A stretch of 55,285 nucleotides of DNA from Bacteroidales bacterium (GTDB lineage: Bacteria > Bacteroidota > Bacteroidia > Bacteroidales > GWA2-32-17): contig JAOAFV010000028.1 in the NCBI GenBank assembly GCA_026416095.1, forward strand, positions 66,121 through 121,405, in the 5' to 3' direction. Under the pieces are notes generated by a model, which did no database searches, had not been told where the DNA came from, and was given only the letters and a program-made list of their open reading frames with translations. Positions 10,123 to 14,806 of the stretch are shown here, one piece after another. The position numbers were made by a program, and so were the translations under genes. Every line of letters begins with the position of its first letter. The stretch's first letter is position 1.

Positions 10123-11256
10123 ATGAAAAAAATTTTATTGTTTTTTAAACTAATACCAGTTATTGTAATAAGTCAAAATTATCAAATTGGGCATCGTCAG
10201 GTAATATATGTTGATTCGAGCAGAAATAATCGTCAAATTCTTACACACATATATTATCCATCTAACATAGCTGGAGAAAATGTGACTATTGCAAATGGGC
10301 AATTTCCATTAATTGTTTTTGGACATGGTTTTTTAATGGGTTATGATTCTTACTTATGGTTAAAAGATTCTTTAACTCCATTAGGATATATAATAGCATT
10401 TCCCACCACAGAAGGAGGTATGTTGCCAAATCATGAAGAGTTTGGAAAGGATTTAAAATTTTTAAACTATAAAATAAAAAACGAAAATAACAATAATGTT
10501 TCATTTCTTTATAATCACGTATCTAATTACTCTGCCATAATGGGACATTCTATGGGAGGAGGAGCAAGTTTTCTTGCTGCAAGCAATAATAATAATCTTA
10601 CTACGTTAATAACCTTTGCTCCAGCCGAAACAACTCCCAGTGCTATTTCAGCTGCAATGAATGTAAATGTACCAACCTTAATTTTTGCTGGCGAAAACGA
10701 TGGAGTAACACCACCTTCAGAAAATCAAATTCCTATGTATAATTCTTGTGCAAGCAATTGTAAAACTTTAATAACAATAAAAGGGGGTGGTCATTGTTAC
10801 TTTGCAAATTACAATTTCAACTGTAGCTTTGGCGAGATGACAACTACACCTCAACCAACCATAACTAGAGAACAACAAATATCGAGAACATTTAAAGCAT
10901 TATATCCTTACATCCAATATTACTTAAAAAACAATACTCAGGCTTTAAATCAATTTTTAAGTATAATAAATAACTCAAATTTCTATTCTTACCAAAGAAA
11001 CTGCAATAACACTAGCACAAAAGAATTTATAAACGATAATATAAATTTAATATATTCAAATAATCTTCTAGTTGTCGAAAACCCTAAAAAGGGCACTATA
11101 TTTATAAACATATACGATATCGTTGGAAGAAAATACATTTCACACAAAACAAATACCGATGTAACAATCAATACCTCTTCTTTAAATACTGGCATTTATT
11201 TTGTCGAAATAAAATCTCTTGATTTTAATAAACTATTTAAGATATTTATAAATTAA
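10123..11256 (+). CDS. secreted alpha/beta hydrolase with T9SS type A sorting domain
   Basis: A signal peptide (residues 1 to about 18) leads into an alpha/beta-hydrolase domain. The nucleophile elbow is GHSMGGG with S143; the likely acid is D193 in FAGENDG and the histidine is H224 in GGGHCYF. The stretch VPTLIFAGEND, the 31-residue D-to-H spacing and the GGxH ending closely resemble the cutinase/PETase type of dienelactone-hydrolase-like enzymes, as I remember those sequences. The last 70 residues are a type A T9SS C-terminal domain (VENPKKGTIFINIYDIVGR ... TGIYFVEI), so the enzyme should be exported to the cell surface. The substrate is unknown; an ester is likely. It converges on the membrane protein at 11265 with only 8 bases between. 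Confidence 0.85.
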   Translation: MKKILLFFKLIPVIVISQNYQIGHRQVIYVDSSRNNRQILTHIYYPSNIAGENVTIANGQFPLIVFGHGFLMGYDSYLWLKDSLTPLGYIIAFPTTEGGMLPNHEEFGKDLKFLNYKIKNENNNNVSFLYNHVSNYSAIMGHSMGGGASFLAASNNNNLTTLITFAPAETTPSAISAAMNVNVPTLIFAGENDGVTPPSENQIPMYNSCASNCKTLITIKGGGHCYFANYNFNCSFGEMTTTPQPTITREQQISRTFKALYPYIQYYLKNNTQALNQFLSIINNSNFYSYQRNCNNTSTKEFINDNINLIYSNNLLVVENPKKGTIFINIYDIVGRKYISHKTNTDVTINTSSLNTGIYFVEIKSLDFNKLFKIFIN

Positions 11257-11264
11257 TTAAGCTA

Positions 11265-11897
11265 TTAATCGCTTTTTAAACACAATACATTAATTAAACT
11301 ATCTACTTTCTTGTTGTTAATCAATTTTTCAAATGTTTTTTTATTGTGACGAAGGTTTTCTACTAGTGGTTCTTGATGACAATATATATCGGCAACAACA
11401 TTTAAACCATATATATTTATTAAAGACTTTACCAACTCCTTTAAATTATTATTTGTACATTTTTTAAATTTATTATATTTAGCCAAAATACTGGAAGTTT
11501 CTTCTATGAATTTTTCAATGGTATTTTTGGTAGGTTTAGTAAAATCTATCTTAGACAGCGTATGATTTTTTTCTGAATAGTATACTATATACTCATGCGA
11601 TGGAATAATAGGAATACCGATATCGCTTATTACGTAATTATAACTTAATTTCGACGATGTATAGCCCTTATATTTAATATTACCCACAAAATATTCATAT
11701 TCAACATTATTTACCTCAAATTCATTTCTAATTCCCGAAAATGAAACCTTAGTTATAACGCCAGTTGTAGTTTTTTTATGTTTAACTAAAATATAATAAT
11801 CATATAGTTTTACCGAAAAATAAATCAATAAAAAAAAGAGTAGCGGCGAAAAAAGCAACAATATTTTTGATAATTTAATTTTCGAATTTTCTTTCAC
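11265..11897 (-). CDS. single-pass membrane protein with DUF3592-like domain
   Basis: One strong transmembrane segment (about residues 10-35) is followed by a beta-rich stretch in which TTGVITKVSFSG and YEYFVGNIKYKGY resemble the DUF3592 layout of membrane proteins of unknown function. The C-terminal 90 residues are lysine-rich and show no recognised motif. The start is a GTG that overlaps the stop of the PAS gene (GTGA), so translation is probably coupled. It is the last gene of the WD40/PAS operon; its role there is unknown. Confidence 0.7.
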   Translation of the reverse strand: MKENSKIKLSKILLLFSPLLFFLLIYFSVKLYDYYILVKHKKTTTGVITKVSFSGIRNEFEVNNVEYEYFVGNIKYKGYTSSKLSYNYVISDIGIPIIPSHEYIVYYSEKNHTLSKIDFTKPTKNTIEKFIEETSSILAKYNKFKKCTNNNLKELVKSLINIYGLNVVADIYCHQEPLVENLRHNKKTFEKLINNKKVDSLINVLCLKSD

Positions 11898-12292
11898 ATA
11901 TACAAATTTTGTAGTTTAGAAAAATTAGTAAAATATTCGTTATAATCAATTATGACAGCAAGAATACCTACAAACTCATTATTAAGATAAGCTGGAGAAG
12001 CCGATATAATTACATCTTTATGTTTACCATTTTTATCTATAAAGGTGCTTTTATAGACATTAGAAAAACCTCTTTTACGAAGTTTAGTGTTTACCTGAAA
12101 AGTAGAAAATTCCTCACGATTTGTAAATTGTCTTAAATTCTTATTTACAATATCATTGTAAGAATATCCAAGAAACTTAACAAATGCTTCGTTACAGTAT
12201 AATATATACTCATTTTCATCGGCAATAATTATAGAAAACGGATTATGCCAAGTTAACTCTTTAATTGCGTTTAATATTTCGTTTTTTAGCAT
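11894..12292 (-). CDS. stand-alone PAS domain protein
   Basis: The 132-residue protein is essentially one PAS sensor domain: SIIIADENEYILYCNEAFVKF is the N-terminal sheet and helix, LGYSYNDIVNKNL is the turn, and DKNGKHKDVIISASP is the late strand pair. No kinase, cyclase or DNA-binding output domain is attached, so it must act through a partner. It starts 7 bases after the WD40/pseudo-caspase gene and overlaps the next gene by 4 bases. Ligand and signal cannot be told from the sequence. Confidence 0.85.
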   Translation of the reverse strand: MLKNEILNAIKELTWHNPFSIIIADENEYILYCNEAFVKFLGYSYNDIVNKNLRQFTNREEFSTFQVNTKLRKRGFSNVYKSTFIDKNGKHKDVIISASPAYLNNEFVGILAVIIDYNEYFTNFSKLQNLYM

Positions 12293-12299
12293 ATTCTTA

Positions 12300-14315
12300 C
12301 TACTTTTTTACCAACGGAATATATAAACCACGCGTAAAAAAATTAATTTTTTGTTGTTTTTGCACAGCATTTGCAAATTCATTAAAATCAATTAAATTAT
12401 TATAATCAAAATCATTTTGGCCACTTAAAGATTGTTTAAATATATTTCCAATTTGATCAGATTTATCTGTCTTAAAAGATATGTATGAAATATTTTTATT
12501 TACATTTATACTTTCAACAATTTCATTATCTAAATATGTTGATTCTTTTATTGTATAACCCTTAGGTATATGAGTAGTATTTTGAGAAAAATTTAAAAAT
12601 AATGCAGCATATGCTTTTGTTTTAATTAGTAGATTAATTACAGAATCTAACGACAGTGTGGTATTATCAATATTTTTAATATCGGTTTTGTTTAATACTA
12701 TATTTATTTTATTATTTTTTTCAAAAAAATAAGTGTTAAAATACAACAATAACACATCGTAGTATTTTGTTTTTGCGATTAAAGTATCAAAAAGGCTATA
12801 AATGTCGCTTACCTGATGCATTTCATTTAAGTTATAACACACTACATTATTAAACAATTTATTTTTCTGAGACTTAAGAACATTAAACATTTCATCTGCA
12901 TTATCTTTTATAAATTCTTTTTTCCATTTTTTTTCCTTAAAATTATTTCCATCGATATATAAAATATACATAGTTGCACGTTCTTTGAAATTTTCGATAT
13001 CGAAATAAGTTACTTTAATCTCGGGAGTAGTAATAATATCTTGTGTATTAGGATTTACGGCAATAAATTGTATAATATTTTTATCGTAATCTAAATAAAT
13101 TTCGTAATTTACCTCTATTTGAGTTTGACTTTTATATCTTACTGAAAGAGGCTTTACTACTTGTTTTTCATTATTATAAAAACGTGTATATTCGAACTTA
13201 TTTAAAAATAATTGAACTAATGAATACTCTGGTTTATTTATCTCAAAAGTTAATGGTAATATTCTTTTGGTAGATAAGTGATTGATAGAAGTTGGAGTTA
13301 CAACTTTAATTTCAGGGAAATTATATAATACATCTGTATTAGAAGTGAGAAAATATTTAGGTTTAAGATTAAGAGGGCTAAGATCCCATATTTTCACAAG
13401 CTTATCAACAGCACCAGTAATAAGATATTTACAATTCGAAGTAAATACAATCGACCTTATACCTTGCGAGTGTGCAATAAATTTATTAATACAAGTTTTA
13501 GTTTTTAAGTTCCATATTCTTACATAATTATCGTTTCCGCCTGAAGCTAAAAATTCACCATCGGGGCTAAAAGCAATCGAATAAATTGCATCGGTATGGC
13601 CTTTTAGCACAGCAATTAAATTTCCATTTCGAGCATCCCATAATTTTATGTTATTTTCTAAACCTGCTGTAGCAATAACATCACCTTTAGGGCTATAAGC
13701 AATTGTTTCTATAGGAAAAGCAGATGTTTTTACACTAAAAACTTCTTTATTTTTACCTAAATCCCACAATTTAAGATGTTGATCATAGCCGCCGCTTGCA
13801 ATATATCGTCCGTCGGGGCTAAATGCAATAGCTCTAATACACTGAGTATGGCCTTCTAAATTTTTAATGTTAATTGCCGTTGGCGTAAACCACATTCTTA
13901 TAATATTGTCCCACCCTGCACTTGCAATTATTTTTCCGTTAGGATGAAATGCCACATTGCGTGGTGCTTGCAAATGACCATAATATCTATTAACAATTCT
14001 TTTGGTGTTAAAATCCCATAATTTTAATATCTTGTCCCAACCTCCTGCCAAAAGGTAATTATTATCTGGGCTAAATGTTATAGCAATGTCTCCTTCACCT
14101 TTATCTGATAAAACATTAACCAAAGAAAAATCTTCAAGATTATAAACATTTATTTCTTTGCCAGCGTGCAAAACAGCAAGATATTTATTATCATTACTAA
14201 CAGCAGTTTGTATTATTGCTTTTGGAAACGATAAAACTTTTATAACTTTTAATTGACTAAAAGAAGATATATAAAAAAACAACAATAAAAACTTTATTTT
14301 TACTATGAATTTCAT
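12300..14315 (-). CDS. WD40 propeller fused to a degenerate caspase-like domain
   Basis: After a signal-like hydrophobic N-terminus come seven WD40 repeats (about residues 25-330; for example SPDGRYIASGGYDQHLKLWD), enough for one closed seven-bladed propeller. A spacer leads to a C-terminal domain (about residues 450-660) laid out like the peptidase C14 (caspase-like) domains that often follow WD40 repeats in Bacteroidota. At the place of the catalytic FSGHG the protein reads YFNTYF (near residue 525), and at the place of DACHSG it reads NFSQN (near 570), so both catalytic His and Cys are missing. The terminal DFDYNNLIDFNEF matches the usual end of the caspase-like region. Likely a non-enzymatic scaffold or sensor; first gene of a three-gene operon. 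Confidence 0.82.
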   Translation of the reverse strand: MKFIVKIKFLLLFFYISSFSQLKVIKVLSFPKAIIQTAVSNDNKYLAVLHAGKEINVYNLEDFSLVNVLSDKGEGDIAITFSPDNNYLLAGGWDKILKLWDFNTKRIVNRYYGHLQAPRNVAFHPNGKIIASAGWDNIIRMWFTPTAINIKNLEGHTQCIRAIAFSPDGRYIASGGYDQHLKLWDLGKNKEVFSVKTSAFPIETIAYSPKGDVIATAGLENNIKLWDARNGNLIAVLKGHTDAIYSIAFSPDGEFLASGGNDNYVRIWNLKTKTCINKFIAHSQGIRSIVFTSNCKYLITGAVDKLVKIWDLSPLNLKPKYFLTSNTDVLYNFPEIKVVTPTSINHLSTKRILPLTFEINKPEYSLVQLFLNKFEYTRFYNNEKQVVKPLSVRYKSQTQIEVNYEIYLDYDKNIIQFIAVNPNTQDIITTPEIKVTYFDIENFKERATMYILYIDGNNFKEKKWKKEFIKDNADEMFNVLKSQKNKLFNNVVCYNLNEMHQVSDIYSLFDTLIAKTKYYDVLLLYFNTYFFEKNNKINIVLNKTDIKNIDNTTLSLDSVINLLIKTKAYAALFLNFSQNTTHIPKGYTIKESTYLDNEIVESINVNKNISYISFKTDKSDQIGNIFKQSLSGQNDFDYNNLIDFNEFANAVQKQQKINFFTRGLYIPLVKK

Positions 14316-14344: not shown

Positions 14345-14806
14345 TTATATTAACATGTTATTTTCAATGTTCCATTCTACCATTGATGTTTCAGTTTCCC
14401 ATAATTTAACAGAATAAAGCGCAACTTTTTCAGGCAATACCTTTTTTAATATATTTACAAAATGTAAAACAATATTTTCGCAAGTTGGTTGAAAATCAAC
14501 AAAATAACATCTTTCAAAAAGAGGTTTGTTGTTTATATTTGTTGTAATTTTTTCGTCATTATATAGTAATAAAGAATGATCGAATTTTTTTAGAATGTGC
14601 TCGTCTATAAGTTTTTCTAAATTTTTAAAATCAATAACCATCCCATATTCATCGCTACGTGAATCAAGATCAACATTGCCAATAACAGTTACCTGTAATT
14701 TGTAACTATGGCCATGTATACTTTCACATTTACCTTTATAATTCCATAAAGCATGGGCCATTTCAAGACGAAATTCTTTTGTTATCCTTAACTTTGACAT
14801 ATTCAT
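14345..14806 (-). CDS. queD: 6-carboxy-5,6,7,8-tetrahydropterin synthase
   Basis: QueD converts dihydroneopterin triphosphate to carboxytetrahydropterin in queuosine/7-deazaguanine synthesis. The zinc ligands H18, H31 and H33 (MAHALWN, IHGHSY) and the catalytic C27 are present. MVIDFKNL, FDHSLLL, PTCENI and the late LWETETSM are all family motifs. Length is normal for the 6-pyruvoyl tetrahydropterin synthase family. The start could also be the second methionine two codons on. No other queuosine gene is visible in the window. Confidence 0.93.
   Translation of the reverse strand: MNMSKLRITKEFRLEMAHALWNYKGKCESIHGHSYKLQVTVIGNVDLDSRSDEYGMVIDFKNLEKLIDEHILKKFDHSLLLYNDEKITTNINNKPLFERCYFVDFQPTCENIVLHFVNILKKVLPEKVALYSVKLWETETSMVEWNIENNMLI

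Follow-up and report, generated by a model that had tools for sequence, protein, structure and literature searches.

The stretch of DNA analysed here (55,285 nucleotides, called the window in the following) comes from a Bacteroidales bacterium of GTDB group GWA2-32-17 (assembly GCA_026416095.1, contig JAOAFV010000028.1, positions 66,121-121,405 of the forward strand). Three open reading frames (ORFs) on its minus strand code for a WD40 propeller protein with a pseudo-caspase domain, a short PAS protein and a one-pass membrane protein. Seven bases separate the stop of the WD40 gene from the start of the PAS gene, and the PAS and membrane protein genes share a 4-base GTGA overlap. The initial annotation had described the ORFs, their coordinates, the spacing and the overlap in the same way. 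We find that the trio is kept together in related genomes, that the WD40/pseudo-caspase gene and a PAS gene form a pair also in other families, and we tentatively propose that the trio is a reduced envelope-spanning sensory module. The genes, and the features of the first protein, are the following:

12300..14315, minus strand: gene for the WD40 propeller/beta-rich linker/pseudo-caspase protein; ORF of 671 amino acids, ATG start
11894..12292, minus strand: short PAS gene; ORF of 132 amino acids, ATG start
11265..11897, minus strand: gene for the one-pass membrane protein; ORF of 210 amino acids, GTG start
14256..14315, minus strand: signal-peptide-like segment, residues 1-20 of the WD40 protein, with Gln21 as the expected first residue of the mature protein (alignment read by eye)
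12330..12977, minus strand: caspase-like (p20) domain, residues 447-662 (profile-profile match, residue check in 12 rows, beta-alpha order of the model)
12378..12413, minus strand: EF-hand-like loop D-x-D-x-N-x-x-I-D-x-x-E, residues 635-646 (12-member alignment)

The WD40/pseudo-caspase protein

Pfam recognizes six WD40 stretches in the 671-residue protein (PF00400, E 1.1e-61). In the AlphaFold2 model (mean pLDDT, the predicted local distance difference test, 81) residues 23-311 form 28 strands, which would fit a propeller of seven four-stranded blades; this is followed in the model by a beta-rich linker (336-437) and an alternating beta-alpha domain (448-662). Pfam gives no Peptidase_C14 (PF00656) match in any of the seven C-terminal domains scanned, at a limit of E 10. 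When the 12-row alignment of this domain was compared by hhalign with 17 caspase frames, the two matched with probability 97.6 and E 3.6e-12 over 291 columns. The comparison set consisted of frames of 17 of the 20 PF00656 loci L145-L164, chosen for carrying both catalytic motifs and including several near-identical orthologues. The profile of the domain also picks frames matched by PF00656, such as G006:C381, G006:C380 and G042:C98. Judged by these profile comparisons the C-terminal domain is a caspase homologue.

The catalytic residues are another matter. None of the 12 rows has a Cys at the catalytic Cys position or one residue before it, and the catalytic His is absent from 11 rows, the twelfth (G056) having a His. 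The window protein has Tyr529 at the His position and Gln578 at the Cys position, where a register shift of one would put Ser577 instead. As read from the alignment the domain is without the catalytic dyad and is not an active caspase, so that the name pseudo-caspase given in the initial annotation can be kept: the homology is there and the dyad is lost.

In the EF-hand-like loop Asp635, Asp637, Asn639, Asp643 and Glu646 are invariant in all 12 rows. EF-hand models of Pfam score below threshold, and this in three of the seven domains scanned; the confidence of the AlphaFold2 model is low at residues 634-638. The N-terminus looks by eye like a signal peptide in all 12 aligned proteins, 11 of which have Gln at the expected mature end; it is a helix (residues 2-19) in the model. 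Its hydropathy is above threshold in nine of the 12 orthologues, and the window protein is among the three below. The protein is probably exported. NCBIfam gives no family for the caspase-like domain or for the membrane protein, and the PADLOC models for anti-phage defence match only within the propeller, with no match for the PAS or the membrane protein.

The short PAS protein and the membrane protein

The 132-residue protein is a PAS domain alone (Pfam PAS_9, E 3.2e-13) with no output domain; Pfam finds no HisKA, HATPase or receiver domain in it. The eight orthologues in the nine-member alignment are 163-170 residues long and have some 35 more residues at the N-terminus, which look coiled-coil-like by eye. 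Hydropathy shows no membrane segment in any of the nine.

The membrane protein has no Pfam match over the curated cut-offs. That it passes the membrane once, as initially annotated, is borne out by a single hydropathy segment at residues 11-29. The AlphaFold2 model (mean pLDDT 86) has one helix, a small beta-barrel (41-122) and a helical tail. Searches with this model gave generic small beta-barrels only (best Foldseek E 0.036, best Z 5.8); these are too generic for a relative to be claimed by fold, and other folds are possible. Ahead of the membrane segment, the 15-residue flank has a net positive charge in all 10 rows. A J domain precedes the segment in distant homologues from five genomes belonging to two other families (L169, L170, L171, L172 and L173; tested with Pfam for L169 and read by eye in the other four), which supports the probable location of the N-terminus of the membrane protein on the inside. 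DUF3592 scores below its cut-off of 25.3 bits in the G001 protein (18.9) and in a J-domain homologue (20.8); Pfam gives no DUF3592 match in the window's protein.

Conservation of the three genes

The window's family, a small group of uncultured Bacteroidales, comprises 10 genomes (G000-G009). All of them have the membrane protein gene, nine have the WD40/pseudo-caspase gene (not G002) and nine the short PAS gene (not G005). The three genes stand in one same-strand run in seven of the 10. With nothing in between they are found in the window, G004, G006 and G008, the first two genes being 77-105 bases apart in the latter three. G007 has a 585-base ORF-free stretch between the PAS and the membrane protein gene (L077, 4539-5123), in which repeated short motifs can be seen by eye. 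The same-strand run in G001 and G003 reads queD-like, TPR-histidine kinase, WD40/pseudo-caspase, degenerate PAS hybrid kinase, short PAS, asparaginase-like and membrane protein gene (based on Pfam for G001). In G009 the membrane protein gene is on a separate contig, near the contig end, and in G005 the genes lie apart. In G002 some 170 bases of contig precede the degenerate kinase gene, and a WD40/pseudo-caspase gene was not detected in this genome.

The trio is thus a conserved neighbourhood. Neither do its PAS and WD40 genes occur apart as often as together: in eight of the nine genomes with a short PAS gene its immediate upstream neighbour is the WD40/pseudo-caspase gene or a pseudo-kinase gene following the latter, and the exception is G002 with its contig starting just before the pseudo-kinase gene. 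A tree of 15 WD40 proteins keeps the family together and places the window beside G001 and G003, with genus g2 outside. Identities between the window and G001/G003 are 44% for the WD40 protein, 49-51% for QueD, 39-41% for the PAS and 29-30% for the membrane protein. A scan of a collection of 84,980 species with the PAS alignment, made with two peptide patterns and possibly omitting records very near the window's, gave 17 loci. Six of these were close (E below 1e-20), from Bacteroidales or Bacteroidetes metagenome-assembled genomes; they are records of G001, G003, G004, G006, G007 and G009 and hence no new cases.

The exact trio was seen in this one family, and in that respect the initial annotation drew the system too narrowly, since the pair of WD40/pseudo-caspase and PAS genes is wider. 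In the order, 53 of 393 genomes match the domain profile at E 0.001, many of them on ordinary caspase frames; strong and nearly full-length matches occur in three further families, and G165 has a fragment at a contig end. In a phylum-wide sample only the window's own genome, one of 395, has the domain at E 1e-20. In both searches only the best five candidates were scored in many genomes, and copies can be missed.

There are 17 WD40/pseudo-caspase loci in 16 genomes of four families, and at 14 of them the next gene on the same strand is a PAS gene. The PAS domain was shown by Pfam in G000, G001, G056, G165, G155, G073, G269 and G177 and by PAS searches in G003, G004, G006, G007, G008 and G009. 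The gaps between the two genes are 2 to 393 bases at the 13 loci measured. As a control we took the PF00656 caspases of six of the same genomes (G004, G005, G006, G008, G042, G056). Their 24 matches make up 23 loci. One locus was not assignable to a gene and another is at a contig end, which leaves 21 downstream genes, and no PAS gene was found among them. The 13 on the same strand have no PAS Pfam match at E 0.001; for the eight on the opposite strand only the short-PAS profile was used, which matched none of the 21 and is insensitive to some PAS domains. It should be noted that orthologues were counted separately in both the pair count and the control, so neither is a set of independent events. 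The two WD40 proteins measured outside the family, those of G056 and G042, are 32% and 29% identical to that of the window.

Two of the loci are damaged: the WD40/pseudo-caspase frame is broken in G177 (L168, 6403-8297), and the contig-edge fragment of G165 has an in-frame stop (L175, 1-231). Both may be due to assembly error or decay.

Intact, degenerate and missing kinases

What follows the WD40/pseudo-caspase gene differs between the genomes. In G056, G073 and G165 Pfam assigns HisKA, HATPase and receiver domains to the PAS neighbour, the frame in G056 ending within the receiver (75 of 111 positions). In G177 the neighbour has a HisKA domain and its frame ends short of a full ATPase domain, and in G269 it has PAS and GAF domains and is then cut by the contig end. 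The G155 neighbour is a PAS-receiver protein without a kinase Pfam match, of which only the receiver aligns with the intact kinases. In the window's family the Pfam scan of G001 and G002 finds three PAS stretches in the degenerate kinase, hereafter called pseudo-kinase, and does not recognize the C-terminal half at E 0.1. Profile comparison nevertheless aligns the combined C-terminal parts from G001, G002 and G003 with the intact kinases over a region that starts shortly behind the H box and extends across the receiver (probability 97.5, E 7e-12, 319 columns), while a motif scan finds the H box, N box, G box and receiver patterns absent from all three. The protein beside the membrane protein gene in G005 is hybrid-kinase-like, with HisKA barely over the cut-off, HATPase below and the receiver over it; no kinase motif pattern matched. 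In genus g2 and in the window nothing but the short PAS gene remains at this position.

The short-PAS profile has its best match in the genome in the WD40-adjacent kinase in G056 (2.6e-19, next 1.9e-11) and G165 (1.5e-22, next 1.6e-10), and in G005 in the protein beside the membrane protein gene (7.6e-14, next 6.8e-6). The initial annotation stressed a PAS domain without an output module. This is true of the window protein; as a design of its own it does not hold up well, because the position is occupied in relatives by a hybrid kinase, by a PAS-receiver protein without a kinase or by a degenerate pseudo-kinase. The reading we prefer for these sequences is that the PAS protein without output represents a kinase partner in reduced form. 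It may be a cut-down kinase, or the product of a separate gene which has outlived one.

A model for the three proteins and its alternatives

The model of a reduced envelope-spanning sensory module starts from the gene linkage, the homologies, the loss of the caspase dyad and the series of intact, kinase-less and degenerate partners. It hypothesizes that the WD40/pseudo-caspase protein is exported and acts in the periplasm as a subunit which binds and does not cut, the EF-hand-like loop probably binding Ca2+. The beta-barrel and the helical tail of the membrane protein would also be periplasmic, and the protein would anchor the propeller protein or relay its state at the inner membrane, by a physical contact which we infer. 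The PAS protein would be the cytoplasmic, inner end. In the wider form, found in other Bacteroidales families, the WD40/pseudo-caspase protein would have a PAS hybrid histidine kinase as its partner. This kinase would have decayed to a pseudo-kinase or been lost in the window's family, leaving the short PAS protein. The direction of this change, a ligand and the output in trans are presumed by the model: the short PAS protein would most likely find its binding partner in trans, such as the PAS or coiled-coil region of a different kinase. The identity of the WD40 protein to its sisters, near that of QueD, is a sign of sequence constraint and counts in favour of the model. A fuller formulation states that the exported, Ca2+-binding pseudo-caspase propeller is the periplasmic input subunit of a Bacteroidales PAS-kinase pair, and that one family has dropped the kinase so that PAS and one-pass membrane protein signal without phosphotransfer. 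This we regard as rather unlikely.

The model departs from the small signalling complex suggested by the initial annotation. The three genes do belong together. The WD40 proteins, however, are signal-peptide-like at the start and the short PAS proteins have no membrane segment, and the two are therefore probably on opposite sides of the membrane. With the propeller outside, the PAS protein inside and the membrane protein between them a direct scaffold-PAS complex is unlikely, and if the propeller is exported a simple soluble propeller-PAS complex is excluded.

Several observations weigh against the module, or against reduction from a kinase. The flank charges of the window's membrane protein are +2 before and +3 after the segment, so the inside end is not indicated and the topology of this protein rests on its orthologues. 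Three WD40/pseudo-caspase loci are without the PAS pairing: in G005 one copy is followed by STAS and chemotaxis-like genes and the other by a gene without a Pfam match, and in G042 a beta-lactamase-like gene follows. The WD40/pseudo-caspase and PAS genes are 183 bases apart in G009 and 393 in G056, which is a lot for an operon. The 12 genomes with a match to the membrane protein include none of the WD40/pseudo-caspase genomes outside the family, and the linker is therefore not general. The kinase of G005 is divergent. In G155, G073, G269 and G177 the WD40-adjacent PAS gene is not the best match of the genome to the short-PAS profile, so the short PAS protein need not descend from such kinases; the best match in G155 is in a 971-residue PAS protein without an adjoining WD40/pseudo-caspase gene, which opposes one-to-one descent. 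Short PAS and pseudo-kinase genes coexist in G001 and G003, and trimming of one gene fails to explain both. Finally, with the window beside G001 and G003 and g2 outside, the extra genes may just as well have been gained in G001-G003.

The exported protein might instead be a binding or structural protein of the envelope which is merely co-regulated with a PAS protein answering an intracellular cue, with no signal passing between them. We consider this possible, if somewhat doubtful. The probable location of the two proteins on opposite sides of the membrane agrees with it, and so do the out-of-family genomes, where four of the five partner proteins tested show no membrane segment by hydropathy and a match to the membrane protein is lacking; yet the pairing has been kept across four families in spite of an identity of only about 30% between the WD40 proteins measured, and in the window's family the membrane protein joins the run. 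A module regulating cell death or stress, with the pseudo-caspase holding back or recruiting active caspases as has been proposed for pseudo-orthocaspases elsewhere, appears improbable. In Synechocystis, cells tolerated oxidative stress better once a pseudo-orthocaspase had been deleted (PMC7889975), and PF00656 caspases are present in G004, G005, G006, G008, G042 and G056. The window genome has no PF00656 match, which lowers this reading; the same is true of G001 and G003, so these three genomes have no recognizable active caspase to regulate, and the PADLOC match is limited to the propeller. Equally improbable is that the trio has no function of its own and is a remnant in decay. Genes of the sister species are missing in the window and its PAS protein is without the N-terminal stretch, as a remnant would have it; at the same time the three ORFs are intact and tightly packed, the set is intact in G004, G006 and G008, and the WD40 protein and QueD show similar degrees of divergence.

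Relation to known systems

Prokaryotic caspase homologues with WD40 domains, pseudo-orthocaspases and operons with signalling domains have been described before (PMC3501461, PMC6426788, PMC7889975, PMC8195603). WD40 is the commonest accessory domain of the prokaryotic homologues (10.9% of sequences), and signalling, sensor and regulatory domains were found in 23 caspase operons (PMC3501461). The window resembles these in its WD40 accessory domain and its signalling neighbours; a pair of WD40/pseudo-caspase and PAS kinase is not described in what is accessible of that paper. The window protein shares with the pseudo-orthocaspases the lost dyad, a Tyr at the His position and, in one register, a Ser at the Cys position, which is their commonest substitution there (PMC6426788). 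It differs in its signal-peptide-like start, in having the domain C-terminal to a WD40 propeller, in coming from Bacteroidales and in lacking a PF00656 match; the members discussed there are mainly cyanobacterial and alphaproteobacterial. The partners in G056, G073 and G165 are PAS hybrid histidine kinases, of which the window has the PAS part only. The membrane protein is like the DUF3592/J-domain membrane proteins in that its distant homologues combine a J domain with a membrane helix and score below threshold for DUF3592; the window's family is without the J domain and the window protein without the DUF3592 match.

No description of the WD40/pseudo-caspase and PAS pair or of the trio was found in searches of open-licence papers. 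The locus is a new arrangement of known parts. By conserved gene order it ties a bacterial pseudo-caspase, belonging to a class with few assigned roles, to sensing of the two-component type. Kinase, pseudo-kinase and bare PAS protein also form a natural series beside one and the same partner, which opens the question of what a sensor does after the kinase has been lost.

Transcription and neighbouring genes

One further gene lies close upstream of the trio:

14345..14806, minus strand: queD-like gene (PF01242, Pfam), 29 bases upstream of the WD40 gene

The initial annotation placed a promoter box ahead of the WD40 gene. There is a TAnnTTTG box 13-20 bases ahead of its start, but the box is common, with 66 occurrences on the minus strand of the window, and no full promoter is near: the complete pattern TTTG-(17 to 23)-TAnnTTTG has three matches on this strand, none of them close to this box. 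As the queD-like gene is so close and on the same strand, the transcript of the trio may start upstream of queD. A queD-like ORF is also upstream in G001 and G003, with the TPR-histidine kinase gene intervening, and none was seen by eye beside the loci of genus g2; the gene is probably a neighbour in the window's genus and not a member of the module. On the other side an alpha/beta hydrolase gene (10123-11256, plus strand) is convergent with the trio; Pfam matches its product to a PET-hydrolase-like family (PF12740, E 3.7e-21) and, at the C-terminus, to a secretion sorting domain (PF18962, E 5.5e-8).

Some observations were made at other loci. One WD40/pseudo-caspase copy of G005 (L080, G005:C40, 1-7163) is the first gene in a same-strand run with STAS (by Pfam) and CheY-like, CheA-like, CheW-like and chemoreceptor-like genes (by eye). 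Near the G073 locus the start of an ORF (L166, 11102-14001) resembles a Cas9 protein by eye. Caspase genes in G006, G004 and G008 (L179, L181, L186) are followed after 3 bases by a gene for a two-component-regulator propeller protein with a SpoIIE domain, which is another caspase-signalling pair. In G008, G004 and G006 (L183, L184, L185) a PD40 propeller gene comes after a caspase gene, with a TPR match in one of them.

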